IMG/VR virus record: IMGVR_UViG_3300036770_005131
Coordinates: 42,618 to 106,617 of that record
Length of the DNA stretch: 64,000 bases
Source of the DNA: a virus
Strand: one strand, 5' to 3'
The notes below the pieces were generated by a model. That model was not told where the DNA came from. It ran no database searches and saw only the letters and a program-made list of their open reading frames with translations. Positions 6,156 through 51,197 of this stretch are shown in pieces (positions within the stretch are counted from its first letter, which is position 1; each line of letters opens with the position of its first letter). A program made the position numbers and the translations under genes.

Positions 6156-6174
6156 TAAAATCCGTCTCTCATAT

Positions 6175-6195: not shown

Positions 6196-6252
6196 AGTAT
6201 AATCTGTAACAGTTCGTACCCCCGGACTCTTATTTACCCTTTAACGAAACAA

Positions 6253-8267: not shown

Positions 8268-8292
8268 CCTCTGTGTTACGGTATGTTAACAT
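8264..8292 (+). promoter_or_regulatory. Sigma70-type promoter for psbD
   Basis: TTGACC 8264-8269 includes the TGA stop (8265-8267) of the endonuclease gene; 17-nt spacer; TAACAT 8287-8292. CATAAATA (8290-8297), a late-like motif, overlaps the -10 region. Confidence 0.6.
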
Positions 8293-8320
8293 AAATATTA
8301 CAAATCTTAATGGAGGATTA

Positions 8321-9382
8321 ATGGTTTCATCTACACTTTCATTACCAAATCAACAAAGGGGGTGGTTTGATGTTCTGGACGACTGGCTTAAGAGAGACCG
8401 TTTCGTTTTTGTTGGATGGTCTGGACTTCTTCTTTTTCCCACTGCTTATCTTGCTCTTGGTGGTTGGCTTACTGGGACAACTTTCGTTACGAGTTGGTAT
8501 ACTCACGGGTTGGCAAGTTCCTATTTGGAGGGTGCAAACTTTCTTACTGCAGCAGTTTCTACTCCAGCAGATTCTATGGGTCATTCTCTTCTGCTTCTCT
8601 GGGGTCCTGAGGCTCAAGGGGATTTCGTCAGGTGGGTCCAACTTGGGGGACTCTGGCCTTTTGTGGCACTCCACGGGGCTTTCGCTCTAATCGGTTTTAT
8701 GCTCCGTCAGTTTGAGATTGCCCGTCTTGTAGGCATCAGACCCTATAACGCAATCGCATTCTCTGGTCCTATCGCAGTATTCGTTTCTGTATTCCTGATG
8801 TATCCACTGGGTCAATCCAGTTGGTTCTTTGCTCCATCCTTTGGTGTGGCAGCAATCTTCAGGTTCCTACTGTTTCTTCAGGGTTTCCACAACTGGACGC
8901 TAAATCCGTTTCACATGATGGGGGTGGCAGGTATTCTAGGTGGTGCTTTACTTTGTGCTATTCACGGTGCTACTGTGGAGAATACACTTTATCAGGATGG
9001 TGAAAAAGCAAACACCTTCAAGGCATTTGAACCAACACAAGAGGAAGAAACTTACTCTATGGTTACGGCAAACCGCTACTGGTCACAAATCTTTGGTATC
9101 GCTTTTAGCAATAAGCGTTGGCTTCACTTTTTTATGTTATTTGTTCCCGTTATGGGTCTTTGGATGGCATCTATTGGTATGATTGGTCTTGCTTTAAACT
9201 TTAGAGCATATGATTTTGTGTCTCAAGAAATCCGTGCTGCTTACGACAGTGAGTTTGAAACTTTCTACACGAAAAACCAGTTGCTTAATGAGGGACTTCG
9301 TGCTTGGATGGCACCTGTAGACCAACCACATCTCAATCTGGTGCTACCAGAAGAGGTATTACCACGAGGAAATGCCTTGTGA
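8321..9382 (+). CDS. psbD: Photosystem II D2 protein
   Basis: 353 residues, full length for D2, uninterrupted. D2 is the partner of D1 in the PSII reaction centre. Conserved segments include [23 protein letters not shown] at the start, [31 protein letters not shown] (chlorophyll/iron ligand region) and the C-terminus ending LPRGNAL. ATG 8321 is chosen because it follows GGAGG (8313-8317) and matches D2 N-termini; an earlier in-frame ATG at 8264 lies in the promoter. A UUCG-loop terminator follows. Confidence 0.97.
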
Positions 9383-27141: not shown

Positions 27142-27327
27142 ATGATCCATATGGATCTTGAAAATTATTTTCGTCTAAACTTTTCGTTAATGCAATATCA
27201 TAAATATTCATTAACTGAGATTGAAAACATGATGCCTTGGGAAAGGGATGTTTATGTCCTACTTTTGAAACAACATTTAGAAGAAGAAGAAACCAAACAA
27301 AAACAACAACAAAGTAATGGCTGGTAA
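27142..27327 (+). CDS. Small baseplate hub assembly protein (gp51-like position), 61 aa
   Basis: Begins MIHMDLENYFRLNFSLMQYH (ATG 27142 or 27151), with IENMMPWERDVYVLLLKQHL and a Glu/Gln-rich end. Short proteins with M-P-W-E-R-(D/E)-x-Y directly after gp26 are tail assembly chaperone-like; the T4 order would suggest gp51. Overlaps the next gene by 11 nt. Homology to gp51 is not established. Confidence 0.5.
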   Translation: MIHMDLENYFRLNFSLMQYHKYSLTEIENMMPWERDVYVLLLKQHLEEEETKQKQQQSNGW

Positions 27328-30073
27328 TCCAGGAAGTATTAACAAAGAAACTATTGATGGAGTAATTATTAGATTACTCAATTTGAAGGTTGGTACTGAA
27401 ATGGACTACCAGACTTATTTTAAAAATATTTTAAATAGGTTAGCAATTGATGGGATTGGAGGAAAAAAACTTCCAGCAGAAGAAAGCAAACTTTTAAGAG
27501 ATGAACTTAAAAGAATTAAAAAATTAATAGATAAAGGTAGATTTAAAATAAATCAGAAAAAAGCAAAAGTTTCTTCTCCTCCACCACCATCTGGAGGGCC
27601 TACTGGTGCTGGAGGAGGAGCACCTCCAAAAACAGGATCAATTGTTAAATCTAAAAAAGGAAAAATAACAGCAGATAAATTTTTCTATCAGAATTATGTT
27701 CAATCTGTAAATGTAAAAGATATTACAGAGAAAGTTTCTAAGAAAAGTGATCCATTAGATAGAATTATAGAAAGATTAGATTCTATTATTCAAACTCTTA
27801 CTGATTTAAATAAAGAAAATAAAAAAGAAAGTGAAAGGCAAAAGAAAGGTGCAGAAAATGCGAGAAGAAAAAAGAGAGAAGAATCTTTAGAATCCAAAGT
27901 ATTTGATGGAATTAAGTCTGCCGTCAAAAAAATGATGGCACCATTCCAATCAATTTGGGATTATATTTTAAATTTTTTGTGGAATGTTTTTCTTGGAAAG
28001 GTTGTTTTAAAACTTCTTGATTGGTTTTCTGATCCAAAAAACAAAGATAAAATTAGTAGTATTGTTCGGTTCTTCAAAGATTGGTGGCCGACAATGTTGG
28101 CTGCTTATATTATTTTTGGAACATCTTTTGGTAAACTAGCAAGAACAGTAGTTAAAATTGCTCTTAAAGGTGCAATTGGTTTTGGAAAAATCATTGCCAA
28201 ATTAATTGCTGCTATTGCAAAAGGTAAAGGTTTAAAGACAGCAGGAGCACTTTCTGGAGGAAGAAAAGGTGGTGGATGGAAAGGTGCTTTATTAAACACT
28301 GGATTGGCAGTTGGAGGAACTTTACTAACAGGATTTGCTATTGATAAAGGTATTGATTCCTTAATGGGTGATGATAAAGAAGATACTCAATCACTAAATC
28401 CTGTTAATATTGATGTTCCTGATGAACCAAAATTCTCAACATTGAATGCCGCTGGGGGTGGTTTAGCAGATCTTGGTAAACTTTTAGGTAAAGTTGGAAT
28501 GGGGGCATTAGGCCCACTTGGACTATTGATGAGTATGGGAATGGGACAGGTTCCTAAAATGTTCCAAGGATTGGTGTCTGGTAAAAAAGGAACTGACAAA
28601 GTACCAGCAATGCTTACTGATGGTGAGTTTGTAATGTCAAAAGGTGCTGTTCAAAAATATGGTGTGGACACTTTAGAATCCATGAATGCTGCTGGTGGAG
28701 GAACTAATGTACCTAAAATTGTACAAAATGTTCAACATCGTGCCGGTGGTGGATTAGTAAGTAATTCTCCAGAATTTTGGAAATTGGCTGCGCTATCTGC
28801 TAAAGAAGATGCTCAAAATCCTCAAGGTCAAGCAGATGTTGCTCAGTCAATTTATAATAGAGCAGCAACTGGTGCTTATCCTGGGGGGAAATCTATTAGT
28901 GGAATTATAATGGGTAGAGATGCCTCTGGTGCATGGCAATATCAACCAGTAAGAGATAATTTTGGTGCTTTTTCTGCAATAAAAGATCAAAAATCTGCAG
29001 AAGCTGCTGTTGGTAAAGATAAACTGAATATGGCAGTCAAATCTATAACAAACCCAGCATTACAGCAAAATGCAAAAGGTTTTGTTGGTGGTAGAACTGA
29101 TTTTATGGGTGAAAGTCAAAAACCTTACATGAAACCTGATAAGGGTGATATTACAAGAGGAAAGAATTATAATTTTCATGGATGGTTTTATAATGCAAAA
29201 TTAAATTCTCCTGCTCCAACACCAAATGTAGTATCTCAAGTTTCTAAACAAACTTCAAATACAACTAAACCTTCAGGTAAAAATAAACCTTCAGGTAAAA
29301 ATAAACCTTTACCTAGTTTGTGGGGCCCTAATTTATTCCAGTTTCAGGATGGAGGGCAACTTAGTCCAATGAGCATAGAAGAATTGAGAAGAAGGGCAAG
29401 AGCCCTAGTTGAACGGGAATTTCCTAGGACTTATAGGGAATATATGGAACAGCAAAGACAGCAAGGAGATGGAACCACATTAATAAGTCCTCCAACTCCA
29501 GATCAAATTGCAAAGGCAAAGGAACAAGCAATAGCGAGACTGGTTGATAATGCCTTAAGAAGCCAAAGAATGATCCCTAATGGAATAATTGGAAAGAATA
29601 GTGGATCTAAAATTGGTCCAAATGGTGAACAATTATCTGGACCAGATAATCTGTATATTCCTCCTTCTCCTTCCAAAAATCCAGGAGAAATTTATCCTCC
29701 ATTTCGTGTTCAAGAAGGAGAAGAAATTATTCCAGGAGAAAAAAAGATTCAAATAATTCCAAAAGATCAAATAATTCCAAAAGATCAAAATGATCAAATG
29801 AATTTGAATTCAAGTTTTAATCCTGTAAAAGGAGGATATGAAAATAAATTACCTCAATTGTCAAGAAATCAAACTAGGAATTCCCCAGTAAATCCTCCAT
29901 CATCAAGACCATCTATTACAGTATCTTCAATGGTAACTCAACCACCAAAAAGTTCTAATGGTGGAGGAAGTGGAAATGTATCTATGGGTAAACTTCCACC
30001 AGTTTCTGCTTCAATTCCCGGTTCATCTGCACTGGCACAATCAAAAAGACAATTGGGTATTAATGTAACATGA
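27317..30073 (+). CDS. Tape-measure-like virion protein with SleB-type cell wall hydrolase
   Basis: 918 residues. Charged N-terminal helices lead to hydrophobic helices at about 215-340. TDGEFVMSKGAVQKYGVDTL (about 435-454) is a motif common in tape-measure proteins. Residues about 485-640 form a Hydrolase_2/SleB-like domain: FWKLAALSAKEDAQNPQGQA, DVAQSIYNRAATGAYPGG, then GAWQYQP, with Glu496 the likely catalytic residue. SleB-type enzymes cut peptidoglycan glycan strands, here probably at DNA entry. The C-terminal 250 residues are Pro/Asn-rich. First of three tandem large paralogue-like genes; overlaps the next by 4 nt. Confidence 0.7.
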   Translation: MAGNPGSINKETIDGVIIRLLNLKVGTEMDYQTYFKNILNRLAIDGIGGKKLPAEESKLLRDELKRIKKLIDKGRFKINQKKAKVSSPPPPSGGPTGAGGGAPPKTGSIVKSKKGKITADKFFYQNYVQSVNVKDITEKVSKKSDPLDRIIERLDSIIQTLTDLNKENKKESERQKKGAENARRKKREESLESKVFDGIKSAVKKMMAPFQSIWDYILNFLWNVFLGKVVLKLLDWFSDPKNKDKISSIVRFFKDWWPTMLAAYIIFGTSFGKLARTVVKIALKGAIGFGKIIAKLIAAIAKGKGLKTAGALSGGRKGGGWKGALLNTGLAVGGTLLTGFAIDKGIDSLMGDDKEDTQSLNPVNIDVPDEPKFSTLNAAGGGLADLGKLLGKVGMGALGPLGLLMSMGMGQVPKMFQGLVSGKKGTDKVPAMLTDGEFVMSKGAVQKYGVDTLESMNAAGGGTNVPKIVQNVQHRAGGGLVSNSPEFWKLAALSAKEDAQNPQGQADVAQSIYNRAATGAYPGGKSISGIIMGRDASGAWQYQPVRDNFGAFSAIKDQKSAEAAVGKDKLNMAVKSITNPALQQNAKGFVGGRTDFMGESQKPYMKPDKGDITRGKNYNFHGWFYNAKLNSPAPTPNVVSQVSKQTSNTTKPSGKNKPSGKNKPLPSLWGPNLFQFQDGGQLSPMSIEELRRRARALVEREFPRTYREYMEQQRQQGDGTTLISPPTPDQIAKAKEQAIARLVDNALRSQRMIPNGIIGKNSGSKIGPNGEQLSGPDNLYIPPSPSKNPGEIYPPFRVQEGEEIIPGEKKIQIIPKDQIIPKDQNDQMNLNSSFNPVKGGYENKLPQLSRNQTRNSPVNPPSSRPSITVSSMVTQPPKSSNGGGSGNVSMGKLPPVSASIPGSSALAQSKRQLGINVT

Positions 30074-33000
30074 AACTTTTAGATTCCAATATTAATAAAA
30101 ATAATCAAATTATAAAAGCAGATAAATTTTTTTCTGCAAAAAATAATATTGGAAAGAAAACTACTAAGATTAAATCAAATGAATCAAATGTAGTTTTAAA
30201 AATTGAAAAAAGAGTTATTAAGATTGATGATTTATTAAAAAGTTTTTTAACATTTAAAAAGAATGAAAATAAGAAGAAAATAAGATCTAGCGAAATTGAT
30301 AGATTTAGAAAAAAAGAAGAAAATTTAGAAAAGAAAAAACCAAAAAAAGAAAAAAATAAGAACATCATTCCAATAAAACCTAAATTGGGGATATTTGGAT
30401 GGTTGACTAATTTCATTACTAATGTTGTTCTTGGATTTATTTTTGTTCGTCTAATTGATAACTTACCAACACTTGCTAAGTTGATTCCAATAATCAATGG
30501 AGTAATGGATGGTATTATTGATTGGGGTGGAAAACTCTTAGATGGATTAGTTACTTTTATTGATTGGGGATATTCAGCATACGATAATACTGTAAAAGTC
30601 TTTGAAAAAATTGGTGGTAAAGATACTGCCAAAAAGTTTGAAGATTTTATGGGTAAATTCCAAGATATGATACAATATACCCTTATTGCGGGTATGTTGT
30701 TCGCTGATCTTGCATTAAGTGGTGGTGTGGGAGGTTATGATACTGATATTCCTCAAGGCATTAAAGGAAAACCAAGTGGTGTACCTAGTACATCTAATCA
30801 AGCAGCAAGAAGATATGCTCAAAGATTTGGAAAAGATGCTGCAATAAAAAGATTTGGTAGAGAAGGAGTTCGTTCTTTAGGTGGTAAGTATGCAAGATCT
30901 GGTGCTACTAATTTAGCAAGAAATGCATTTGTTGGTCTTGCGGGAAAAGGTGGAGCAAAAACAACTCTTAAGTTTTTAAAACCATTTACTAAGAAACTTC
31001 CAATTATTGGTGGTTTATTGGACTTTGGACTCTCTGTTGCTTTAGGTGAAGATCCAGGTAGAGCGGCATTTAAGGCAATAGGTGCTACACTATTAGGTGC
31101 AGTTGGTGCAGCATTGGGAGGACCTTTTGCACTATTAACTGGATTTGCCGGTGGTTGGTTAGGAGATCAAGCCGGTGGCGCATTATATGATGCTCTATTT
31201 AAAAATAAAGGAACAAAAAGTTCTTCTCAAAATAAATCTAAAGGTTTATTTGGATGGAATAGTGGAGGAGTAATTAGAGGTTATGTAAGTGGTGGAACAA
31301 CTCGTGGGGGTCAATATCAAAGTGAGATACCAAAAAGAGAACTAAAAATTAAAAAACCAAAAAGAAGAGTAATACCAAAACCTGCAAAATTAAGGCAGGG
31401 AAGTATTACTGGAGGTACTAAACAAATTAAAAAAGTTTTTCCAGAACCATCAGACATAAGATCTCCTGAAGGAACTGGACCACAGAAAAAAGAAGAGACA
31501 ATGAATTCTTTTGGATTTTTGTCTCATAGTTACTATCGTTTTGCGAGTGTTCCTTTCATTGGTCCATTATTGGCAATGCCATTGAAAGTAATGATGGGTG
31601 ATACTGTAGATTATGGTTATTATAAAAGTATTGGTCAAGGATTTGATTCATTTTTAAATAAAGCTTATGATGAAGGTGCATTTTCTGATGACTTTAAGAT
31701 AGAAAAATTTGACATTGAAAAAATAGTTTCAAAATCTGTTGAAGAACTTACGACAAAAGAAATGTCTAAGATCAGATCAGATCTTATGCAACAGTTGATG
31801 TTGGAAAAAATAAAATCTACTGGTGGTAGTACAAAAACTGAGGGTGATGATTGTATTTGTCCCGAGGACACTGGAGGATCTGCAAATATTCAAGGAGGCA
31901 GTGCAGATTTTTGGACACTTGTTGCTGTTGCTTCAAGGGAAGATGCAGATCCACAAGGATCTGCTGATGTTGCACAGTCAATTTATAATCGTGTTGCTTC
32001 TGGGGCATACTCGGGAAGAACTATAAAGGATTTAATTACTGCAGCATGGCAATATGAACCAACATGGCGATATCCGAGTATGGGTTCTAGAGGTAGACCA
32101 AATAGACAGTGGTTTACAATTACAGATGCTGCTTCTGCAGCTGCTGCATCTGGGTTATCGGTAGAAACTATGAAAAGTGTCGCTGCTACATTGTTAAATC
32201 CATCTAGACAAGCTAGTGCTAGAAGTTTTATTCAAGGAAGAACAGATTTTAAGGCGCAAGGTCAAGGAGTTTCTGGAATTAGCAGAAGTTCTAGATCAAA
32301 TGTTTTTGGATGGCATTATAATTATAAAGGAACTAAGGTTGCTCCAGTTCCTAATTTTGGAGCATCGTCAAGTCCTTCTAATGCATCTCCAACAACTTTA
32401 GCATCATCCTCTCCCGCAGGAAGTGTATCTGATTGTTCTTGTGATGATGATAATATTCCGGATCCTAATGGAATAAACACTCCAACAAATCCAGAAGCAT
32501 TAGGTCCCGTTGGTAAAAAAGGTAAAATCTATTTACACTGGAATGCTGCGGCTAGAAATAATCCATATGGATATGAAAGAAAATATCATGCTATTTTTAC
32601 TGAGGATGGAAAAAAATATCAAAGAACACCATATAGTCAATTTAATACACCAGAAGGACACACTGCATATAGGAATAGTTTAGGAGTTGGATTGGCTGTA
32701 GCAGGAATGGGAGGCGCGGGTGTTGATCTCAATAATTATGGATCACAGACTCCAACTCAAAGGCAATATGAAGCAATGGCACAAGAAGCTGCTAATCTTG
32801 CAAAAGCCTGGGGATGGTCGCCATCAATGGTTAATGTTAGAAATGTTGCAACTCATGCTGAAGTGGGTTCAATGAAAGATGGAATAAAAAATAGTCCAGC
32901 ATTATGGTCTCAAGGTGCTAAGTCAGATCCTGATAATCACGGACCTGTTGCTTGGGGTGGCGATGGATCTAGATGGGATTTATTTAAGTTAAGACAAGGT

Positions 33001-33411
33001 GATTCACCTGGAAGTGGTGGTGATAAAATGCGTAATATGATTAAACAAAAAATGGGATCTGCTGGTAAGTTTGGTGGAGGTCCAGTTAATGAAGGACTAA
33101 CAAAAGTACATCCAGGAGAATTTATAATTGATAAAGACTCTGTAGACACTTTTGGAATAAATTTTATGGATATTATCAATGAAGTGGAAAACAAGTCTCA
33201 GTTGTCAAATGCAAAACAATCATTAATTAAAATACTGGAAGAAATTGTACCTGAATATTCTGAAAATGCTCCTGATAAAGTAGTTTACAATTATATTCCT
33301 AGACCTTCTTCAGGTGGAATGAATGTTGTTCAAAAATCTACGAGTATAATTAATATGCCTTCTAAAAAATCTTACGGTAATCCGGTTATAGATTTATTGT
33401 CTGTGGGGTAA
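30070..33411 (+). CDS. Large virion protein with SleB-type hydrolase and amidase-like domains
   Basis: 1113 residues. After a Lys-rich N-terminus, residues about 105-175 form a hydrophobic block (LIPIINGVMDGIIDWGGKLL) almost identical to the next gene. A Gly/Ala-rich membrane-like region follows (about 300-380). Residues about 611-756 are SleB-like (FWTLVAVASREDADPQGSAD, VAQSIYNRV). Residues about 818-972 look like an N-acetylmuramoyl-L-alanine amidase: KIYLHWNAA, YHAIFTEDGK, VATHAEVGS and RWDLFKL supply zinc-type His residues. HPGEFIIDKDSVDTFG near the end parallels the other two paralogues. Thus one protein may carry two lytic activities. Confidence 0.7.
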   Translation: MKLLDSNINKNNQIIKADKFFSAKNNIGKKTTKIKSNESNVVLKIEKRVIKIDDLLKSFLTFKKNENKKKIRSSEIDRFRKKEENLEKKKPKKEKNKNIIPIKPKLGIFGWLTNFITNVVLGFIFVRLIDNLPTLAKLIPIINGVMDGIIDWGGKLLDGLVTFIDWGYSAYDNTVKVFEKIGGKDTAKKFEDFMGKFQDMIQYTLIAGMLFADLALSGGVGGYDTDIPQGIKGKPSGVPSTSNQAARRYAQRFGKDAAIKRFGREGVRSLGGKYARSGATNLARNAFVGLAGKGGAKTTLKFLKPFTKKLPIIGGLLDFGLSVALGEDPGRAAFKAIGATLLGAVGAALGGPFALLTGFAGGWLGDQAGGALYDALFKNKGTKSSSQNKSKGLFGWNSGGVIRGYVSGGTTRGGQYQSEIPKRELKIKKPKRRVIPKPAKLRQGSITGGTKQIKKVFPEPSDIRSPEGTGPQKKEETMNSFGFLSHSYYRFASVPFIGPLLAMPLKVMMGDTVDYGYYKSIGQGFDSFLNKAYDEGAFSDDFKIEKFDIEKIVSKSVEELTTKEMSKIRSDLMQQLMLEKIKSTGGSTKTEGDDCICPEDTGGSANIQGGSADFWTLVAVASREDADPQGSADVAQSIYNRVASGAYSGRTIKDLITAAWQYEPTWRYPSMGSRGRPNRQWFTITDAASAAAASGLSVETMKSVAATLLNPSRQASARSFIQGRTDFKAQGQGVSGISRSSRSNVFGWHYNYKGTKVAPVPNFGASSSPSNASPTTLASSSPAGSVSDCSCDDDNIPDPNGINTPTNPEALGPVGKKGKIYLHWNAAARNNPYGYERKYHAIFTEDGKKYQRTPYSQFNTPEGHTAYRNSLGVGLAVAGMGGAGVDLNNYGSQTPTQRQYEAMAQEAANLAKAWGWSPSMVNVRNVATHAEVGSMKDGIKNSPALWSQGAKSDPDNHGPVAWGGDGSRWDLFKLRQGDSPGSGGDKMRNMIKQKMGSAGKFGGGPVNEGLTKVHPGEFIIDKDSVDTFGINFMDIINEVENKSQLSNAKQSLIKILEEIVPEYSENAPDKVVYNYIPRPSSGGMNVVQKSTSIINMPSKKSYGNPVIDLLSVG
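30472..30510 (+). repeat. 39-nt exact repeat shared with 33826-33864
   Basis: Identical DNA in the two paralogous genes, within a longer block of about 110 nt that is nearly identical. Confidence 0.85.
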
Positions 33412-33417
33412 AAGAAA

Positions 33418-36400
33418 ATGGCAATTAATAGCAGCAAACTTCTAGCATTACCTCCATCTAGATCATCTTCTCTTACTGTCAGTAAAATATTTGAATCCCC
33501 AAAAGAAAAACTAAACAATCCAAATAAAGTTAAAATTGACAATCGTTTAATTACTATTGAAAAAAAAGTTATTACAATTGACAAATTATTAAAAGACTTT
33601 CTTTTAATTGAAAGAAATAAATTTAAAATAAGATCAAGGAATCAAGAAAAAAAGACTCGTGAAGATAAAGAAAATGAGTTAGAGAAAAAAGTCAAAAAAC
33701 CATCTGGAGTTAAACTGCCAAAATTACCCACACCTAAATTAGGATTGTTTGATTGGATTAAAAATTTTATATCAAATGTAATATTAGGGTTTATTGCTGT
33801 TAGATTGATAGATCAACTTCCTCAACTTGCTAAGTTGATTCCAATAATCAATGGAGTAATGGATTTTATTATTGATTGGGGAGGAAAACTTTTAGATGGA
33901 TTAGTTACTTTTATTGATTGGGGATATAAAGCAGTAGATGCAAGTAGAACATTTGTATCTAATGTTTTTGGTGAAAGTGGTGCAAAGGCATTTGATGATT
34001 TTTCAAATAAGTTTAATGATATAATCAACTATTCATTAATCGCAGCAATGTTAATTGCTGACACTGGTGATAGTATTATAGGTGGTTTTGGTAAAGGTAA
34101 ACCAGATATTGATTTAAGAAAAGGAGGATTAGATAAGGGAATAAAAAAACCACAAAATGATGTATTAAAACGATACTTCCAAAGATATGGAAGAGATGCA
34201 TTTGTTCAAAGATTTGGTCAAGAAGGTTTAAAGAGATTACCAGGAGGAATGCAAAGAGGAGCACTTCAAAGAGGTGCTCGTAGTGCATTTACTGGAGTTC
34301 TAGGAAAAGGTGGAGCAAAGCAAGTTCTTAAATTTGTTCGTCCTTTTACAAAACGACTTCCAATTATTGGAGCATTACTTGACTTTGGATTGTCAATTGC
34401 TCTTGGAGAATCTATTGGTAGGGCCGCATTTAAGGCAATTGGTGCTGGTCTTCTTGGTGCAATTGGAACTGCTGTTGGTTCTGTAATACCAGTTGCTGGA
34501 AATATCATTGGAGGAATAGCAGGAGCTGCACTTGGAGATTGGGCTGGTGGAGCATTATATGATTTGTTTTTTGAAAATAAATCTAGTAAAACACCAACTC
34601 AATCATCTGAAAAAATTGAAAAATATGCAGGAGGTGGAGCAACAACTAGAGGTGGAAAATATATTTCATCTGAACCCGAAAGAAAACTAAAGGTAAAAAA
34701 GGTAACAAGAACTATAACCCCACAACCAACTTCATTACAACCTGGAAGAAGTGTATCTGGAAACATTAAATCTGAATCTGATCCATCAAAAACATTAATT
34801 GAAACTTATTATCCAAATAATACTGGTAAGAATGAAGTTAAACCATACAGTTATTTAAAATCGTCACATCAAACTTTAAGTAAAATTTCTTATCTTGGTT
34901 CTTTGTTTGGTTTAGTTACTAAAACTATTTTTGGGGATAAACCATCTCCAATTGATTACATGAATGTTTCTGCTGGATTAAATTCCTGGATTAATTATAT
35001 TTTGGATAAATTGACCTTTGGATATGCAAATGGTGGTTTAGTAACAGATGAATCTACAAATCAAGATTTAAGAAATTGGTTAGCAATTAATATTCAAAAT
35101 ACAGTTAATCCAAGAATTAATCAAATTATTAATGATTTAATGAAACAATTATTATTAAAACCAGTTTCTGGTAGTGGTGGCCCAAGTCCAGCTCCTCCTG
35201 GGGGAGGAGGTGCAACACAACAAACTGATCCAAATGCACAGTTCCAAGGTCAAGCAGATTTTGTAATTGGTGATAATATCGCTCATGGATTTGCAGGAAG
35301 AACTGGAGATGGTTCTGATACTGGTGACACTAAGAAAGGAAGAAAACCCGCAGAAGTCTTAGCAATTCTTAAATCAAAAGGTGATGCTCTTAAAGGAAAA
35401 CTGGTTGATTTATCAACTGGTATTGCACATTCAAAAGATGATTGGTCAACAGTTGAAGAGCAATTAAAGTATCTTCAATCAATGGGGGCAAGAGTTAGAT
35501 TACTTGGTGTAGGAAAGCAGTGGGATTTTAGTAAAGGTGGAGGTCAAGTTAATTCAAAACTTCAACAACTTGCAGGTCAATATGGTGCTTATTTTTATGG
35601 AGGACATGATGCAAGTGGAGATAAAGAATTAGGTCTTCAAGGTTCTCCTGCTGGATATGGAGAACTTAAAGAAAGATTAGAATCAACTAAAGTTTCTGAA
35701 GGAGCAATTTCACCTGGAGATGGTAAATTTATTCAAGGTAATTCTGGAAGATCTGGAGGTGTTCATTTTCATATTGGTACAAACAATCCTGGAGATGGTT
35801 CTGGTGTTGCAACTGCAGGATTAAATGTAGTTAAACATTTCTTAGGAAAAAAGTCAATTTATGTTGGTAGATCTGGAGAAACTATCCCTACAGGAGCAAA
35901 TGATCAACAAATAAAAGGATATATTGCAAGAGGTCAAGCAGCACATAGACAAACAGAACTAGATCTTCAAATTGGCGGAACTGGTGCTGGAAATAAAGTT
36001 GCTTTTCCTTTGGCTCTTAAAAATATGAAATATAGCGCAACAGATGGATATGGTGTATCTGCTGATATTGTTGGAACAAATGCTTTTGTCGGGCATGGTA
36101 GATATAAACCGGATGGAACTCTTGCTCCACAACAAAAATTAGTATTGAATTCAGGTGCTCCTGATTTTTATGCATTCCATGGAAGATATATTACCGAAAA
36201 TGAATCACAACTCATTAAAACTCACGATGGAGAATATGTAATTGATAAAGATTCAGTTGATGCTTTTGGGTTTGAATTTATAAAATTGATCAATCAAATA
36301 GAAAGTAAAAGTCAACTAAAAAGTAATATAGATACAATTATGAGTATGCTTGATTATGAAGATCAAAGACCTCGTACAACTTTTGTGAATGTATTTGTTG

Positions 36401-36501
36401 ATGAACCATCTACAAATAATACATACATAGTAAATAAAGAAACTATTTTAATGTCTTCTTCCAAAGAAGATGGATTATCTTACATTTGGGACTATGTTTA
36501 A
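33418..36501 (+). CDS. Large virion protein with SGNH-like esterase and M23-like region
   Basis: 1027 residues, paralogous to the preceding gene in its N-terminal 400 residues and in its C-terminal HDGEYVIDKDSVDAFGFEFI. The middle differs: residues about 611-757 (QADFVIGDNIAHGF, LVDLSTGIAHSKDDW, YFYGGHDASGDKELGL, SPAGYGEL) resemble an SGNH/GDSL hydrolase in which GDS is replaced by GDN, so the nucleophile is uncertain. Near residue 780 SGGVHFHIGTNNPGDG recalls the G-V-H-x-H core of M23 peptidases. A role in piercing the envelope is inferred. Confidence 0.6.
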   Translation: MAINSSKLLALPPSRSSSLTVSKIFESPKEKLNNPNKVKIDNRLITIEKKVITIDKLLKDFLLIERNKFKIRSRNQEKKTREDKENELEKKVKKPSGVKLPKLPTPKLGLFDWIKNFISNVILGFIAVRLIDQLPQLAKLIPIINGVMDFIIDWGGKLLDGLVTFIDWGYKAVDASRTFVSNVFGESGAKAFDDFSNKFNDIINYSLIAAMLIADTGDSIIGGFGKGKPDIDLRKGGLDKGIKKPQNDVLKRYFQRYGRDAFVQRFGQEGLKRLPGGMQRGALQRGARSAFTGVLGKGGAKQVLKFVRPFTKRLPIIGALLDFGLSIALGESIGRAAFKAIGAGLLGAIGTAVGSVIPVAGNIIGGIAGAALGDWAGGALYDLFFENKSSKTPTQSSEKIEKYAGGGATTRGGKYISSEPERKLKVKKVTRTITPQPTSLQPGRSVSGNIKSESDPSKTLIETYYPNNTGKNEVKPYSYLKSSHQTLSKISYLGSLFGLVTKTIFGDKPSPIDYMNVSAGLNSWINYILDKLTFGYANGGLVTDESTNQDLRNWLAINIQNTVNPRINQIINDLMKQLLLKPVSGSGGPSPAPPGGGGATQQTDPNAQFQGQADFVIGDNIAHGFAGRTGDGSDTGDTKKGRKPAEVLAILKSKGDALKGKLVDLSTGIAHSKDDWSTVEEQLKYLQSMGARVRLLGVGKQWDFSKGGGQVNSKLQQLAGQYGAYFYGGHDASGDKELGLQGSPAGYGELKERLESTKVSEGAISPGDGKFIQGNSGRSGGVHFHIGTNNPGDGSGVATAGLNVVKHFLGKKSIYVGRSGETIPTGANDQQIKGYIARGQAAHRQTELDLQIGGTGAGNKVAFPLALKNMKYSATDGYGVSADIVGTNAFVGHGRYKPDGTLAPQQKLVLNSGAPDFYAFHGRYITENESQLIKTHDGEYVIDKDSVDAFGFEFIKLINQIESKSQLKSNIDTIMSMLDYEDQRPRTTFVNVFVDEPSTNNTYIVNKETILMSSSKEDGLSYIWDYV

Positions 36502-36504
36502 AAA

Positions 36505-37806
36505 ATGTTAGAAAGAATTAAAAGAAGTAATAATAATATTACAAAACTTGATATATTTCCAAATGATGGAGGCGAATCCATTTCATTGCTCAGAGGTATA
36601 ACTGAAATCTATTATTATGAAAATGTTTTGTCTCCAACAATTAATGTTCAAATTGCAGTCGTAACAACTGGATTTGATGCTGATGATGGTGCTGGAGCAA
36701 AAATCAATTTTGCAGATAAGATAAAATCTGGAGCAGGAGAAAAAGTTTTTTTTGAATTTGAAGATGGATTAGAACAAAAAATATCTTTTGCATCAGATGA
36801 TAGATGTTTGAGATTGAATCATAACTATAAATTACCAGAAACTGCAAAGGCTGCTCCATATATTATGGACTTAGTTTCTGAAGAATATTTGACAAATGAA
36901 TCATCAAGAGTGCTTCAAAGATATGATGGCCCAATATCAGACTCAGTATCAGCGATATTTCAAACTGTATTAAAAACTAAAAAAGCAATAGATGTTGAAC
37001 CTACACAAAATCTTTTTTCATTCATAGGAACAAACAAAAAACCATTTTGGGTAATTACTTGGTTGGCAAAACAATCTGTTCCTAATATTGGAGGTGCTTA
37101 TGGAAAAACTGCAGGATATTTCTTTTTTGAAACCAGAACAGGATTTAAGTATAAGTCTATAGATACCTTATTTGATAGCAAATTATATAAAAGATTAATT
37201 TATAATAATACAGCGTCTATAGAAATTCCTGTTGGATATGATGGAAAAATTTTAGAATATGATGATACTGATAATGGAGATTTAAAGGAGCAACTTAAGA
37301 TAGGTGCATATAGTTCAACTACAGATCTTTTTAATCCATTTGAAAGTTCTTATATTTGTAATAATTTAAGTTGGTTTGATCAAGCTGGTGTAGTTAAGTC
37401 TTTAGGTGTAGATTATGGAAGTGACATTAATCAAATGTTTACCAATGTTCCATATACTAGAATTTTTCAGACTAACATGAATATTGGAAGTATGTTTCCT
37501 ATTGGTCAATCAAAAGAACCTGTAATAGAAAAAGAAAAAATAACAGCGCAATCAAATTCAAGATACAATCAAGTTTTTAAAGTCACATTAAAAATTAAAA
37601 TCGCTGGAGATTTTTCATTACAGGCTGGAGACTTAATTTATTGCGATTTTCAAGAAATATCTTCAAAGAAAACACCAATACCAAATACTAGATTAAGTGG
37701 ATTATATATGATTTCAGCTTTATGTCATCATATAAATAGAGATCCTAAAGAAACTATTACTTCTTTAGAACTTGTAAGAGATTCTTACGGAAGAAAACCT
37801 AAATAA
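36505..37806 (+). CDS. 27: Baseplate hub protein gp27-like
   Basis: 433 residues, close to T4 gp27 (391). ISLLRGITEIYYYENVLSPT, then VEPTQNLFSFIGTNKKPFWV, ITWLAKQSVP and the C-terminal LSGLYMISALCHHI match cyanophage gp27, the trimeric hub that forms the start of the tail channel and holds gp5. Follows the large hydrolase gene by 3 nt. Confidence 0.85.
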   Translation: MLERIKRSNNNITKLDIFPNDGGESISLLRGITEIYYYENVLSPTINVQIAVVTTGFDADDGAGAKINFADKIKSGAGEKVFFEFEDGLEQKISFASDDRCLRLNHNYKLPETAKAAPYIMDLVSEEYLTNESSRVLQRYDGPISDSVSAIFQTVLKTKKAIDVEPTQNLFSFIGTNKKPFWVITWLAKQSVPNIGGAYGKTAGYFFFETRTGFKYKSIDTLFDSKLYKRLIYNNTASIEIPVGYDGKILEYDDTDNGDLKEQLKIGAYSSTTDLFNPFESSYICNNLSWFDQAGVVKSLGVDYGSDINQMFTNVPYTRIFQTNMNIGSMFPIGQSKEPVIEKEKITAQSNSRYNQVFKVTLKIKIAGDFSLQAGDLIYCDFQEISSKKTPIPNTRLSGLYMISALCHHINRDPKETITSLELVRDSYGRKPK

Positions 37807-38046: not shown

Positions 38047-40974
38047 ATGTCTGATCAATTAACTGGTGGATTGTTTGAATCCGGTACTTTTATGAGTCCT
38101 CCCTGGTGGTTAGGGAGAGTAGAATCTAAAGAGACTTGGCAAGATAATATAGAAGCACAAACATTTACTAATATTGCCGGAATTGAAGGGTGGGGGTATC
38201 GCTATAAAGTAAGAGTTTTTAATTGGCATACTGGAGATTTAGCTACACTTCCTCCAGATCAAATGGCTTTTTGTCAAGTCATTATGCCCGTTACTGCAGG
38301 ATCTGGTCATGGTGGTGCATCAGTAACTCCATCTATAGAATCTGGATCCGTAGTATTTGGATTCTTCATGGATGGAATGGCGGGTCAAGAAGGATATATT
38401 GTAGGAGTTCTTGGCAATTCAAATAATAATGTACCAAAGGTAAGAGGAGCAGCTGCACCAAACCAAACTGCAGTAGCACCTTCTTTATCTGGACCTATAC
38501 TTTCAAATCCTCCTGCTCCATCTATTGGCCCAGGCAGTCTGGCTAATTTACCATTGCCACCAAATGTAGATCAATTAAGTTCAGATCAATTAAAAAAACT
38601 TCTCAATCCAGCAAGAACTCCAAGTAGAGAAGAATTTTCTGCAGCTTCAAAGGCAAGATCTGAAGCAAAATTAAAAGGTCTTCCCTTACCAGAAATTGAA
38701 AGACAAGTATTAATTGCTACAGTAAAAGCATCAAGACTTCCTGGAGCATCTTCACCAGTTCCATTTCTCTGCAATCAAGGTTATCAACAATTTAATGACA
38801 CTTTTAGTGACTCAAATAAAGCGCCAGCATATGTTCCAGATAACTTAAATGTTTATAATATTCCTCTTCAAATTACAGAAGGACTTCATTTAAAGACATT
38901 AGCATGGGATATTCAGGATCAAGATAAAAGAGTACAAAGACCTCTAAGAAATGCATGTAAGAAAGTTGATTCTGATGTTCAAGGAATTGCAAAAGTTCTT
39001 AATAATTTAATTAAAGATTCTAATAATATAGCAAAAATAGCAGGAGAAGTATCTGTAGCGGCAAGTTCAATTCAATCTCAAACTTCAAGTTTAATTCAAA
39101 CAGCTGCTCAATTTGCATCTTCATACATGATTAATATATTAACTCGTGTATTAGAAGAATTGCAAATTTTAATAACAGAAGAATTGCAAAAGAGGGTAAT
39201 ACCAAATCTTTTTCCTAGCGAAATTCCAACTTATAATAATATAGTTTCTGAGGCGCTTGAAATTCTTTCTTGCTTGTTTAGAAATATAATGCAAGCTCTC
39301 GTACCAACATTTGTAAAACTTCTTACTGACTTGTTAGCAAATTTAGTTAGTGGTCCAATTTGTGCGGTTCAGCAACTTATCTCTGACTTTTTAAACCCTA
39401 TTCTCGGACAAATAAGTTCTGCACTATCATCAGTTTTGGGTACTATTGGAAATATTGCAGGTTTAGTTGCAAGTGCATTTTCTTTATTAAGTGGAATTTT
39501 GAATTTTTTCAAATGTGATGAGCAGCAACAATGTCCAGGTTACGATCAGATAGATTTAGCAGGACCAGCTAAACCAGCAATAGCAATAGGAAATTTTTCT
39601 TCAGGAATTCTTAATAGTCTTAATCAAGCAAATAGAGGAGGAACAACAGGAAGTGGTTCTAGAATTAATTGTAATGTTGAACCTGTTTTTTGTGGTCCTC
39701 CTAAAGTTAATTTCTTTGGGGGAAATGGTTCTGGAGGACAAGCAAATCCAATAGTTAGTAATAGTTCATCAATTATTGGTTTTGATATTGTAAATCCAGG
39801 ATCGTATACATCTGCGCCAATCGTTACTCTTGAGGATCCTTGTGGAAATGGATCTGGTGGAGCATTTGAAGCTATAATGGAACCTGATGAAAATAATCCT
39901 GGAAAACTCAAAATAAAAAATATTTTGGTAAAATCTCCTGGTACGGGTTATTTACAAAAACCCAATGGTAGTATGGGAGGAGATGGATTTGTTTGGAAGG
40001 AACCAGATGAGGGTTATATTAGGAGTTGCAATGGGGAATTTAAAGTTGTCAGAATCAATAAACCAGTAGAACTAAATCCTGGAGAAACTTATTATCCCCC
40101 AAATGGTAAACCAGAAACTCTTTCCGTAAAATACACAAAATATAAAGTAAATATACCTCAAAATGTATCATCAAAAAATTGTCCTGCTAAAATAACTATA
40201 ACTAACACACAAGGAAGATCTAGAAAATATTATGGATTTATTAATAACGATACTTTATCTTTAAATACTATTCCAAATAATATTGTAAAAGGTGGATCTT
40301 CAGTTGAGGGTTTAAACATTGCTGAAGGTACAATTATAGTTCTTGATATAAATCAAACAGGAATTGGAACCACTGCTGCCGCTGGTATTGGAACCACTAC
40401 TACTGCTGGTATCGGAACTACTACTCCAGGTGGCCCTGGTATTGGAACTACTACTGGTTCTGGTACTACTATTCCAAATGAAAATCTATCTGATCCAGAA
40501 TCTGAGGATACCCGAATTATAGAACTTCCGCTTCTCCCAGTAAATCCAATAAATATACCTGTTGTTGATGATTTTGCTATAGTAAACCAAAATGCACAAA
40601 ATGATCAAACTATTCAAGATCAAGAAAGATTATGTTACAAAGCAGTGTTATGCGTAGAAGAAATACAAGTTATTCAAACAGGATTTGCATATAGACCTGA
40701 AGATGAGATTGTTATTACTCCTAGTAATGGTATGGTAGTAAAACCAATAATTAATGAATTTGGTCAAATTACAGAAGTTAAAGTCTTAAGTGGTGGTTGC
40801 GGTTTTGACGACATTCCGGAAATTAAAACAAATTCTCCTACTGGATTCAATGCTTTACTTGTACCAATAATCACAGTTAAGAGAATATGTGAAAATGGAG
40901 AATTTGATGTTCCAAAGGATTCAAAGGTTATTAATGTAGTTGATTGTACTGGTTGTATAAAATGTAGGAGGTAA
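38047..40974 (+). CDS. 5: Baseplate central spike protein gp5-like (OB fold, no lysozyme)
   Basis: 975 residues. The N-terminus (about 1-125: FMSPPWWLGRVESKETWQDN, GWGYRYKVRVFNWHTGD, LATLPPDQMAFCQVIMPVTA, GQEGYIVGVLGNS) is the gp5 OB fold. T4 gp5 next has a lysozyme domain, which is absent here. Instead a long helical/hydrophobic region (about 280-480) is followed by Gly-rich beta repeats and GIGTT units (about 775-810). The end has a Cys-rich DCTGCIKCRR. Hydrolytic activity appears to have moved to the neighbouring large proteins. Confidence 0.75.
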   Translation: MSDQLTGGLFESGTFMSPPWWLGRVESKETWQDNIEAQTFTNIAGIEGWGYRYKVRVFNWHTGDLATLPPDQMAFCQVIMPVTAGSGHGGASVTPSIESGSVVFGFFMDGMAGQEGYIVGVLGNSNNNVPKVRGAAAPNQTAVAPSLSGPILSNPPAPSIGPGSLANLPLPPNVDQLSSDQLKKLLNPARTPSREEFSAASKARSEAKLKGLPLPEIERQVLIATVKASRLPGASSPVPFLCNQGYQQFNDTFSDSNKAPAYVPDNLNVYNIPLQITEGLHLKTLAWDIQDQDKRVQRPLRNACKKVDSDVQGIAKVLNNLIKDSNNIAKIAGEVSVAASSIQSQTSSLIQTAAQFASSYMINILTRVLEELQILITEELQKRVIPNLFPSEIPTYNNIVSEALEILSCLFRNIMQALVPTFVKLLTDLLANLVSGPICAVQQLISDFLNPILGQISSALSSVLGTIGNIAGLVASAFSLLSGILNFFKCDEQQQCPGYDQIDLAGPAKPAIAIGNFSSGILNSLNQANRGGTTGSGSRINCNVEPVFCGPPKVNFFGGNGSGGQANPIVSNSSSIIGFDIVNPGSYTSAPIVTLEDPCGNGSGGAFEAIMEPDENNPGKLKIKNILVKSPGTGYLQKPNGSMGGDGFVWKEPDEGYIRSCNGEFKVVRINKPVELNPGETYYPPNGKPETLSVKYTKYKVNIPQNVSSKNCPAKITITNTQGRSRKYYGFINNDTLSLNTIPNNIVKGGSSVEGLNIAEGTIIVLDINQTGIGTTAAAGIGTTTTAGIGTTTPGGPGIGTTTGSGTTIPNENLSDPESEDTRIIELPLLPVNPINIPVVDDFAIVNQNAQNDQTIQDQERLCYKAVLCVEEIQVIQTGFAYRPEDEIVITPSNGMVVKPIINEFGQITEVKVLSGGCGFDDIPEIKTNSPTGFNALLVPIITVKRICENGEFDVPKDSKVINVVDCTGCIKCRR

Positions 40975-42381: not shown

Positions 42382-43050
42382 ATGAGAATTCATGAGGTCT
42401 TTCCAATATTAGTTGCTCAAGATACAGTAAAAGTACATCAAGAATTTAAAGATCAATACTTTGACGAATTAAAAACTTTATGGTTTAATGGTTATGAGAA
42501 TGAAACTCCAGAAAATTCTGGAAGATGTTCTTTACATTTAAATTCTAATTATCACATTCTTTTCAAATCTTTAAAAGAAAGTATATGTAATTACTTGGAT
42601 TTATTAGAAATAGACCATAATAAATTAAATATTAACTTTATAAAATCGTGGGTTGGATATCATAATAAAGATATTCCCCAATTACAACCTCACATACATA
42701 ATGGATCAGATATTTCTTTTTGCTATTATTTGTCTTCTGATGATACTTCAGATAAGTTTTGCGTTCATAGTTCAAATAATCTAAATGAAGTATCAGGAAA
42801 TATTTTTGAACCAAGTAATAAATATAATTTGATTAAAAAGTTTAATAAGTATAATTGCGGGAATTATACAATAACACCTCATGAAGGAACAGTTGTTATA
42901 TTCCCAAGTAATCTATCACACTCTACTTTGAAAAAAGAAAATTTAAGTGATAGATATGTAATTGCTGGTGATGTTAAATTATGTTTAAAACCAGAATATA
43001 ATCTACATCATCAATCTATGCCTCATCCAAGTCTTTGGTTATCATTATAG
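42382..43050 (+). CDS. 2-oxoglutarate/Fe(II)-dependent oxygenase
   Basis: 222 residues. Iron ligands are suggested by QPHIHNGSDISFCYYL (His-x-His region) and the distal His in IFPSNLSHST, with the 2-oxoglutarate Arg in DRYVIAGDVKL. This matches the putative 2OG-Fe(II) oxygenase family (TIGR02466-type) common in cyanophages. Substrate unknown; modification of protein, DNA or metabolite is possible. It is embedded among structural genes and therefore likely expressed late. Confidence 0.8.
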   Translation: MRIHEVFPILVAQDTVKVHQEFKDQYFDELKTLWFNGYENETPENSGRCSLHLNSNYHILFKSLKESICNYLDLLEIDHNKLNINFIKSWVGYHNKDIPQLQPHIHNGSDISFCYYLSSDDTSDKFCVHSSNNLNEVSGNIFEPSNKYNLIKKFNKYNCGNYTITPHEGTVVIFPSNLSHSTLKKENLSDRYVIAGDVKLCLKPEYNLHHQSMPHPSLWLSL

Positions 43051-47600: not shown

Positions 47601-50600
47601 TAGCATTACAAAAGAAACTTTAACCAAATTCATTAGCGACTTTAATGTTGGATTTGGAGTAACTGCAATAGTTTCAGATTCAGTAGGAACTTCTCATACA
47701 ATTTACACAACTATAGATCATGGTCTTTCACAGATTAATTCCTTTAGCATAGTAAGTGCTGGATCAAGTTATGTTCCTGGAACTTATTATGGTGTGGATT
47801 TACAGGGATCTGCTACTGGAATTGGTGCTAAAGTAGCAATTGATGTAAATTCAACTGGAAATATTTCTTCCGTTCAAATTATGGATGGTGGAAGTTGCTA
47901 TGCAGTTGGTAATACATTATCAATTCTTCCTAGATCTGGTATTGGAACAACTACAGGATTTGTACCAGCAACGATATCTGTAACTTCTATTAGTAATAAT
48001 ATTAATGAAGTAGTAAGTCTTTCTGGATACACTGGAATTAATACTGGATATAATAATCTTTATAGAATTACATCTATTCCTGCAAATAATAGAATAGTAG
48101 TTTCATCTGCTGGAATAGTTACTAATTTTAGTACATCTTTAGTATCAAGTGATTCTACAGCAGTTGTAACTGGAATAGCACTTACAGTTTCTAATTTTAC
48201 TTATGATAGAATAGTTGGAATTGCAACTGTTACGACTTTATCTTCTCATGATTTAAATCTAAATCAAAAAATTAGACTTGATGGATTTACACAATCTTTT
48301 TATAATAAAGATGTATCAGTCAGTAAAATTCTCTCATCAACATCATTTGAAATTGTAGGAATTGGAACTTCAACTACAACTCCAGCAACAACTGGAACTA
48401 GAATTGTACATCCATATGGTTATAATACTTCTCAAAGAGGTAATGATAGAGGTAGATATATCTATGATAAACTTATTTTAACAAACAATAGTTTAGTATC
48501 ATCTAGTTCTGATATAATTTCAATTACAAATGCTCAAAATACTGGACTAAAAATAGGGGATTACCTCAAGATTAATCAAGAAGTATTAAGAGTAAAATCT
48601 CCAGTTGTCAATAGTAATGTTTCTGTTTATAGAGCACAATTTGGAACTGTTAGATCAAGTCACTCATCTGGATCTGTAATTCAAAGAATTAAACCTATTC
48701 CAATTGAATTTAGAAGAAATACAATTATTCGTGCTTCTGGGCACACCTTTGAATATGTCGGATTTGGCCCTGGTAATTATTCAACTGCATTCCCCGAAAG
48801 ACAAGATAGAAAATTATCTGATACTGAAAAAATATTATCACAATCTTTAAAATATAATGGTGGTGTTGTTTACTATTCTGGAACAGATGATTCTGGAGAT
48901 TTTTATGCTGGAAATAAGAAAACTACTTCTGCAACTGGAAAAGAAGAAGTTTTTGATACTCCAATTCAAACTTTTGCCGGGGATGAAAGTTCTACAAATG
49001 AAATTGTAAAAACAAATGATGTTGTAATTGATAGATCTATTAGAGTTGGTGGTGGAAAAAATAACAATGTGGTATCAGAATTTAATGGCCCAATTGTTCT
49101 GAATGAAAAATTAACTTCTTATTCTCCTGAAGGAATTGAAGTACCTTCTATATTCTTACAGGGTGATCAAGAAATTTCTAGAAGATATTCTATTTCTAAT
49201 GAAGAACCATCTATTTCAGGAAATTATGGTGATATAATTTATCGTGCTTCTCCAAATGAAGGCGAAAATATTGGTTGGGTTTATACGACAAATGATCGTT
49301 GGAAAACTTGGGGATATGTTGGAGATTTAGGAACTCAAATATCAATTTATTCAGGTGTAGAAAATGGATCAAACATTCTTGAAGGAGTTGTAGACAAACT
49401 AAAATTTGTTGGAGATCCTAACGGATTTGGTATTGATGTTGATATTGAAATAGATCCAACAGTTGGATTTGGAACTATTGTTCTCCGAAATCCAATTGAT
49501 ATTATTAATTTTGGAACCAGCACTTTAGGAACAAATGCTCCAACATTTACTACTAGAAGTAACGGAACCAGAATAGTATATTATGATTCTTTAGATACTA
49601 ATAATGTTGATTATGCTGTTGGTATTGGTAGTAATATTCTATGGAATTCTATTCCAAAAAATGAAAGTGGATTCTCCTTTAAATGGTATGGAGGACAAGT
49701 TGAATTAATGTCCTTGAGCGGATCTGGACAACTTACAGTTTCTAATGGAATTATAGGTGTACTAAATGGTGATGTTAATGGAAATGCAACTACTGCAACT
49801 ACTGCAATTAATCTTACTAGATCAGTAATCGCTGGTGTTGGATTAACTGGTGGAGGAATTTTAAATAATCAAAATGTAACTTTAAGTGTTGGTCAAGGTA
49901 GTGGTATTACTGTGAGTGGTACTACTGTTGGTATTAATACTGATGTAGTTGTCACAAGATCTGATAATCAAAGTATTAGTGGAATTAAAACTTTTACTAA
50001 TACAATTCAAGGTACAATAACTAATGCAATAAATGCATCTACATCAACTACTTCCACTAATCTTAATAGATCAGTAATTGCTGGTAATGGATTAACTGGT
50101 GGGGGAATTTTAAATGGTCAAGATGTAACTTTGAATATTGGTCAGGGTAGTGGTATTACTGTTAATGCTGATTCTATTCAAGTAGATTCAACTGTTGTAA
50201 GAGATTCTGGACCCCAAACTATTGGTGGAGTTAAAACTTTCACTAGCACAATTTCTGGTAGTATTACTGGTAATGCTGGTTCTGTTACTAATGGAGTTTA
50301 TACAGTAGGAGATCAGAGTATCAATGGAATTCTAACTGTCAATGATTTATTTGTAGGGACAGATGTTGGTGATCCAGCTGCAAATGCAGGTAATACCAAC
50401 GCATCAAGATTAGGAGATGGGGTATTTTCTATTAACCGAATTGATGAGGTTCCAGTTCGTATTGGTAGAAGTAATAATGGAGCTTTAATTTGGTGGTTTA
50501 GAAATGGGAATAATGAGGGTACTATTAGTAATGCAGGAGGAACTATATCTTATGGAACTTTCTTAGGTACTCACTGGGGTCGTTTTGAAGATGGAAGTAA

Positions 50601-51138
50601 ACCTGATGTTTTGCCGGGAACTATTTTAGAAACGGTAAATAAGTTGATTGAATGGAAAGTTGCAGTATTTAATGTAAATGGAGAAGAAAAAATCTCGGCA
50701 TATGAGGGGTCATTAAAAGCAGGAGATACTATACAAATTGGATATGAAGGAAATATTTATGATGCAATTATTAAAAATGAAGAAGAAATTCCTTATGATT
50801 TAAATAAACATGTTTGTGTAAAAATTAGTGACACTCCAGCATCTAAGAAGGTCTTTGGTGTATTTCTGGGATGGGATGATAATGACATTCCTGAAAAAAT
50901 GGTTAATACTTGGAATGATATGAATTGTGCTGCTATTGGTAACTATTTTATTCGTATTGCATCTGGACAAACTTTAGAAATTGGCGATCTTATTGAATCT
51001 GATGGTAATGGTTGTGGAAGAGTTCAAGATGATGATATTATTAGATCAAAAACAGTTGGTAAAGTTACTAGCACTATTCCGCAAAGAGTATATGATGATG
51101 GATCATTCTTAGTCACTGCAGTTTTATATTGTGGTTAA
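44623..51138 (+). CDS. Giant tail-fibre/baseplate-type structural protein, 2171 aa
   Basis: Starts MGLSRLEAFLKSVRGNLLHV, the opening seen in a conserved very large cyanomyovirus virion protein. Residues about 40-480 are a pectin-lyase-like beta-helix (PFKTLNRALAEAARFSYQAG, TILIYPGQHLVDNRPG, QLVSIFAIGFANQFLAESGG). Several copies of a beta module (about 300-355, 830-885, 1190-1240) are followed by duplicated repeats near 1730-1850 (SVIAGVGLTGGGILN and SVIAGNGLTGGGILN). The C-terminal 180 residues (GDTIQIGYEGNIYDA, VGKVTSTIPQRVYDDGSFLV, ends LYCG) match the ends of other cyanophage fibres. Host binding is likely in the C-terminus. Confidence 0.75.
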   Translation: MGLSRLEAFLKSVRGNLLHVDPNALDSTDSIENDGSSQMVPFKTLNRALAEAARFSYQAGLDNDRFGRTTILIYPGQHLVDNRPGAFIDDTGSIKLRSGANTTITPWSLDTVYDITSATNDLYKLNSVHGGLILPRGVSIVAKDLRKTVIRPLYVPDPTNNAIERSAIFRLTGASFLYGFSVLDADPNGLAYKDYTTLKHTPTFSHHKLTCFEYADGVNDVAITDIFNQSISTSRTDLEMYYEKISLVYGDSSGRPIDDVIYSTGAAVDIQPVVDEFRIVGSRGKDFQISEIRAGNGFTPTNIITVTTTEPLEGISVDTSIQVSGINESGYSGQFTVFRVLGTNQFQYKSSIVPQVASPEIFGANISIVTDTVSSASPYVFNVSLRSVYGMCGLHADGSKADGFKSMVVAQFTGIGIQKDDNAFVLYDKNTGVYRDSVAVPNLYKNSRARFKPEYENYHIKVSEGGFCQLVSIFAIGFANQFLAESGGDYSITNSNSNFGSKALVSDGFSRDAFPRDDVGFITKIIPPRDIESQKITVEFNSIDVGLTTTSAAGAATTTRLYLYDEKDFNNPPRTLLDGYRVGAAKNETLYLENSTASVVIPDTTTSYEKSFNVARINNNTENSISSGIINFTQTDTFQTGEKVRVVSDNGYLPDGIEDKIYYAIDVTTGGNNQIRLAETFDSALNNVFVNLNTKGGNLRVVSRVSDKNVGEIGHPVQWDSIKSNWYITVAPNSTLYTHLLSKTGVETTNKTYIERIPDRRNIEDTIYKFEYVIPKDSSVVARPPVDGYVLQKSNKNLLGENEIDIYFGDESLQNVNDLRSPKYISNATWNAGEAIITSELDHELLVGSKVKIENVVPDGYNGTYTVKRITNSKQFVVDIIINPGLFSNNTTTRDLNLPYFQPKETVNTYKLYTIETIQEYIPEKQDGIYELIILNNSVSPIASPFNNIKLSQPIKNLYPQTDRDNPSSDPKEAVSFAKLDIIGEVTLDSSENSITKETLTKFISDFNVGFGVTAIVSDSVGTSHTIYTTIDHGLSQINSFSIVSAGSSYVPGTYYGVDLQGSATGIGAKVAIDVNSTGNISSVQIMDGGSCYAVGNTLSILPRSGIGTTTGFVPATISVTSISNNINEVVSLSGYTGINTGYNNLYRITSIPANNRIVVSSAGIVTNFSTSLVSSDSTAVVTGIALTVSNFTYDRIVGIATVTTLSSHDLNLNQKIRLDGFTQSFYNKDVSVSKILSSTSFEIVGIGTSTTTPATTGTRIVHPYGYNTSQRGNDRGRYIYDKLILTNNSLVSSSSDIISITNAQNTGLKIGDYLKINQEVLRVKSPVVNSNVSVYRAQFGTVRSSHSSGSVIQRIKPIPIEFRRNTIIRASGHTFEYVGFGPGNYSTAFPERQDRKLSDTEKILSQSLKYNGGVVYYSGTDDSGDFYAGNKKTTSATGKEEVFDTPIQTFAGDESSTNEIVKTNDVVIDRSIRVGGGKNNNVVSEFNGPIVLNEKLTSYSPEGIEVPSIFLQGDQEISRRYSISNEEPSISGNYGDIIYRASPNEGENIGWVYTTNDRWKTWGYVGDLGTQISIYSGVENGSNILEGVVDKLKFVGDPNGFGIDVDIEIDPTVGFGTIVLRNPIDIINFGTSTLGTNAPTFTTRSNGTRIVYYDSLDTNNVDYAVGIGSNILWNSIPKNESGFSFKWYGGQVELMSLSGSGQLTVSNGIIGVLNGDVNGNATTATTAINLTRSVIAGVGLTGGGILNNQNVTLSVGQGSGITVSGTTVGINTDVVVTRSDNQSISGIKTFTNTIQGTITNAINASTSTTSTNLNRSVIAGNGLTGGGILNGQDVTLNIGQGSGITVNADSIQVDSTVVRDSGPQTIGGVKTFTSTISGSITGNAGSVTNGVYTVGDQSINGILTVNDLFVGTDVGDPAANAGNTNASRLGDGVFSINRIDEVPVRIGRSNNGALIWWFRNGNNEGTISNAGGTISYGTFLGTHWGRFEDGSKPDVLPGTILETVNKLIEWKVAVFNVNGEEKISAYEGSLKAGDTIQIGYEGNIYDAIIKNEEEIPYDLNKHVCVKISDTPASKKVFGVFLGWDDNDIPEKMVNTWNDMNCAAIGNYFIRIASGQTLEIGDLIESDGNGCGRVQDDDIIRSKTVGKVTSTIPQRVYDDGSFLVTAVLYCG

Positions 51139-51197
51139 TCATATAAAAATAAAAATCATCTAAATAATAAAAAAGGGGATAGTGAACCTTAAGTAAA

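Follow-up and report, generated by a model that had tools for sequence, protein, structure and literature searches.

Three adjacent large genes of a T4-like cyanophage, here called ORFs A, B and C, probably encode tail-borne entry lysins with exchangeable wall-cutting domains, or warheads; C would carry a circularly permuted M23 peptidase, and the third protein stems from a gene duplication. We assign this reading a probability of about 0.6. The genes lie in the 64,000-nucleotide stretch of DNA analysed here (the window), which belongs to a 106,617-base IMG/VR virus record. The finding points to a probable location in T4-like cyanophages for the entry lysin that gp5 provides in T4, and the gene slot concerned shows hydrolase warheads being swapped and multiplied through duplication. 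More broadly, we incline to the view that cyanophage tail proteins hold a natural circularly permuted M23/LAS metallopeptidase, unrecognised by Pfam and NCBIfam, on a scaffold encoded by a second-slot gene that undergoes repeated tandem duplication, adding wall-cutting domains.

Two Photo_RC genes of the psbA/psbD type in the record (48951–49823 and 51022–51891; approximately 6334–7206 and 8405–9274 in the window) indicate that the virus infects a cyanobacterium; the Photo_RC-bearing stretches span window positions 6187–7284 and 8264–9382. The tail genes match those of Kyanoviridae. Around A–C we found gp53-like and gp48-like genes and a head-closure gene on the minus strand, then the tail tube, after which the order is gp26, a short gp51, A, B, C, a gp27-like gene and gp5 (Table 1). 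A gene for a 2OG-Fe(II) oxygenase (window 42382–43050; phrog_81, E 2e-24) follows soon after gp5. The three tandem genes of the original prediction are present and adjacent at the coordinates given there, and the peptide quoted for the end of each protein occurs in A, B and C, respectively. The slot that they occupy holds two large ORFs in the sequenced Kyanoviridae examined, or one in S-WAM2, and two proteins in related viral contigs wherever it is readable whole. The exceptions are the window and contig L009, the slot proteins of which match A, B and C over their full lengths in an identical arrangement. In contig L050, two second-slot genes stand in tandem close to the contig end, so that there are probably three slot proteins in all.

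Table 1. Features of the three-gene slot and its neighbours, in window coordinates
Feature	Position	Strand	Basis or detail
Short gp51 (baseplate hub assembly catalyst), overlapping the start of A	27142..27327	+	phrog_634, E 6e-24; sequence read
ORF A, first-slot protein, 918 aa	27317..30073	+	Same-slot homologues in most related contigs
A: DGEFVMSKGAVQKYG motif, aa 435–449, mid-protein; type seen near the end of tape-measure proteins	28619..28663	+	
A: SleB-like (Hydrolase_2) stretch, aa 501–574, Glu retained	28817..29038	+	Pfam; PDB profile
ORF B, second-slot protein, copy 1, 1113 aa	30070..33411	+	Paralogy with C; tree
B: SleB-like stretch, aa 629–684	31954..32121	+	Pfam; PDB profile
B: Amidase_2, aa 829–932; candidate zinc ligands LHW, THAE, RxD	32554..32865	+	Pfam; relatives' alignment
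B: PGEFIIDKDSVDTFG motif, aa 1015–1029, near C terminus	33112..33156	+	
ORF C, second-slot protein, copy 2, 1027 aa	33418..36501	+	Paralogy with B; tree
C: SGNH-like region, aa 614–736 (block V after, to about aa 741)	35257..35625	+	Motif comparison
C: M23-like domain, rotated order, aa 762–921	35701..36180	+	His783, His785 (HxH), His843, Asp849, His893
C: DGEYVIDKDSVDAFG motif, aa 937–951, near C terminus	36226..36270	+	
gp27-like tail protein (phrog_350), closing the slot	36505..37806	+	PHROG match
gp5-like hub protein, 975 aa, Gp5_OB domain	38047..40974	+	Pfam

The three proteins had been described as sharing paralogous ends around different middles, a description that suits B and C and not A. 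Alignment marks B and C as true paralogues that share both ends, with 45% identity over residues 19–614 of B and 39% over its C-terminal stretch (1009–1100). The N terminus of A is only weakly related to that of B (27% identity, E 1.8e-5), and its GEFV motif, at residue 435 of 918, precedes the SleB domain. In a tree of 31 second-slot proteins, with L009 representing the window, B and C are sisters (support 95/85) and the two L050 copies group elsewhere (100/99), which implies two independent tandem duplications. By this phylogeny, the third protein is the product of a lineage-specific tandem duplication of the second-slot gene. The L050 duplication (366–6875) has likewise left copies that differ in content: one has a rotated M23-like domain, and the other has intact SGNH-like catalytic motifs together with a weak Amidase_2 match.

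Profile searches lend partial support to the SleB domains proposed for A and B. Pfam Hydrolase_2 is matched at E 0.0016 (19.4 bits) in A and E 1.5e-4 (22.7 bits) in B, both short of the curated cut-off of 27 for PF07486, but SleB structures are the best PDB matches (4f55, E 0.009; 4fet, E 0.025) of a SleB-like profile built from six phage relatives, the Glu of which aligns with the Glu of these structures. The amidase proposed for B passes its curated cut-off (PF01510, E 6.4e-6; 27.0 bits compared with 26), and its candidate zinc ligands, His, His and Asp, are invariant in four phage sequences; a search of PDB sequences with the B amidase returned no match on which to map these ligands.

The last domain of C had been called M23-like. 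All five of the metal-binding and catalytic residues of M23 are indeed kept, but in a rotated order and with no Pfam match. The domain runs from GNSGxSxGxHFH through a His and an Asp to YG...HG, whereas canonical M23 domains run from H..D through YG...H to GxTGxSTGxHLH, so that HxH..H..D..H stands in place of H..D..H..HxH. In the M23 signature, the HxxxD motif lies ahead of HxH (PMC8416486); in the rotated family, the His–Asp pair comes after HxH and is spaced by 5 to 11 residues, unlike HxxxD. The domain of C shares with M23, LytM and lysostaphin (LAS peptidases) the HxH in its GNSGxSxGxHFH context, a further His, the Asp and a second catalytic-type His, and differs from them in the rotated order, an insert of about 50 residues with two helices between the halves, a His–Asp spacing longer than that of HxxxD and the lack of a PF01551 match.

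The rotated domain occurs in 29 viral-contig loci and in S-CAM3, the one isolate known to have it, and the five residues, His783 and His785 included, are invariant across 22 distinct aligned sequences from the window, S-CAM3 and viral contigs. Among distant relatives, a ‘muramidase’ of S-T4 also keeps all five in rotated order, and in the S-WAM2 branch the first His of HxH is missing, but its second His, the Asp and HG are retained. Contigs L033–L036, which reach 258,362 bp, bear the domain, and their sizes indicate very large genomes in some relatives. Bacteria and archaea yielded no relative in a genome scan that depends on short conserved peptides. Searching the literature for circularly permuted M23 peptidases, we came across only a review that applies the phrase to relatives of NlpC/P60.

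No profile library recognises the domain: PF01551 gave no Pfam match for the domain, its halves, its 22 relatives or the record, and a first profile of the domain had only chance matches among PDB sequences. We compared the two halves separately (hhalign) with a profile built from 79 M23 domains of phages, canonical sequences gathered by DNA pattern, using shuffled sequences as the null. The first half matches the C-terminal motif of M23 (P 1.3e-6), and none of 400 shuffles did as well. When the set included S-T4 and S-WAM2, the second half aligned weakly but end to end, and in the expected register, with the N-terminal part of M23 (P 0.019; 13 of 397 shuffles as good). For the window's family alone it falls within the null (89 of 500 as good), and for the S-WAM2 branch it reaches P 0.0032, with 5 of 500 shuffles scoring better. 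The AF2 model of the domain is confident (pLDDT 87, pTM 0.85). Foldseek, which aligns in sequence order only, placed no M23 structure among the PDB matches listed for two AF2 models, and confirmation by fold thus failed; on a viral library it links the window's model to S-T4 (E 3e-9) and S-WAM2 (E 2e-4).

These comparisons make it likely that the domain of C is a circular permutation of M23. Alternatively, it may be a metal-binding or structural domain with no kinship to M23, its likeness in the GNSGxSxGxHFH stretch having arisen by convergence, which would fit the missing Pfam match, the lack of M23 among the PDB matches listed for both models and the shuffle-level score of the second half in the window's own family. 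We consider convergence a serious but unlikely explanation, given the first-half match, the match of the S-WAM2 branch and the way in which the remaining conserved residues (H, D and the HG after YG) follow the order that rotation predicts, even in the distant S-T4 protein. If the permutation is true, it gives this intensively studied group of wall peptidases a new topology, and it would account for the failure of profile libraries to recognise lysins in many cyanophages, both marine and freshwater.

As the original prediction held, the gp5-like gene of the window lacks a lysozyme: Pfam finds only Gp5_OB. The Pfam lysozyme domain is absent from every gp5 tested, six from Kyanoviridae and that of the window, and same-slot proteins of relatives bear varied hydrolases (SleB and Amidase_2 in Syn33, Amidase_2 in S-WAM1, glucosaminidase and VanY in S-SCSM1, and M15 in S-H38). 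Lytic domains outside gp5 accordingly look like the rule in Kyanoviridae. The proposal that lytic activity was moved out of gp5 and diversified is supported, but not as a peculiarity of this phage; judging from these domain matches, it appears general to T4-like cyanophages, in which varied tail lysins are ordinary. Any adaptation to the cyanobacterial envelope, which the original prediction tentatively suggested, would be conjectural. The slot proteins of S-SCSM1, Syn33 and S-CREM2 (ORF208/209) resemble those of the window in gene slot and length, and several have wall-hydrolase domains, but they number one or two rather than three and mostly bear other warheads. This phage stands out by its third protein, the outcome of a duplication specific to its lineage, and by the unusual warheads of C; the new points are that third protein, an SGNH-like region that is probably dead and, most of all, the rotated M23-like domain missed by profile libraries. 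In contigs L012, L013 and L015, the gp5-like gene, downstream of the gp27-like gene, is split into an OB-side and a C-terminal ORF; it is a single ORF in the window.

We infer that all three proteins belong to the virion, in its tail or hub, and that these tape-measure-like scaffolds also serve as entry lysins in place of the T4 gp5 lysozyme. When the tail contracts, they would enter the periplasm, where their exchangeable warheads would cut peptidoglycan: B would use SleB plus a zinc amidase, A a warhead of SleB type, and C a permuted M23-type zinc peptidase behind an SGNH-like domain without catalytic residues. The second-slot gene was duplicated in tandem to give the third protein, the copies having since diverged in their warheads. 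The supposed role, local cutting of peptidoglycan at entry, is that of T4 gp5, whereas the gp5 of the window keeps only the OB and later parts, with lytic domains on separate large proteins.

The scaffolds, of about 1000 amino acids, have a charged N-terminal stretch, hydrophobic and glycine-rich segments and a GE[FY]V-type motif. Partial PHROG tape-measure matches occur in A, around its GEFV motif, and in C; a scan of ten neighbouring ORFs yielded no other tape-measure candidate. Tape-measure proteins with lytic domains in SPbeta- and Arthrobacter-type phages are likewise large tail proteins with a wall hydrolase, and by PHROG match have the GEFV-type motif in common with the slot proteins, which differ in being split into two or three proteins and in their T4-like hub gene order. 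Among cyanomyoviruses, the longest tail on record (about 418 nm) is that of S-CREM2, which also has, before its spike genes, tandem ‘endolysin’ ORFs of about 1565 and 1456 amino acids by coordinates (PMC10665884); such a long tail and such long ORFs would be in keeping with a tape-measure role.

Both slot proteins of S-SCSM1 were found in the proteome of purified virions (PMC9602691), and the two tandem ‘endolysins’ of S-CREM2 (ORF208/209) were detected in virions with about 70 unique peptides each (PMC10665884). As the authors of the S-SCSM1 study point out, proteins of this kind may stay in suspension after CsCl purification, making carry-over possible (PMC9602691), and some homologue records are named ‘endolysin’; A, B and C could then be endolysins for lysis from within that stick to purified virions. 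This seems improbable considering the many peptides from each S-CREM2 protein, the conserved position of the slot within the hub gene block, and the large scaffolds with their hydrophobic segments and tape-measure-like motif.

The SGNH-like label given to the region of C ahead of the rotated domain holds at the level of motifs. Neither C as a whole nor its parts matched a hydrolase in Pfam, NCBIfam or the PDB sequences, and the region has no significant profile match (the best, to Pfam GDSL in S-H38, has E 0.22). If the region is SGNH, it is probably inactive in this phage, as the catalytic Ser, Asn and His are replaced by Asn620, His671 and Gln741. That it is an active esterase using other residues is very improbable on account of these replacements and the motif-level assignment, even with its other positions well conserved in L050 (63%) and S-H38, relatives that themselves keep GDS, Asn and His.
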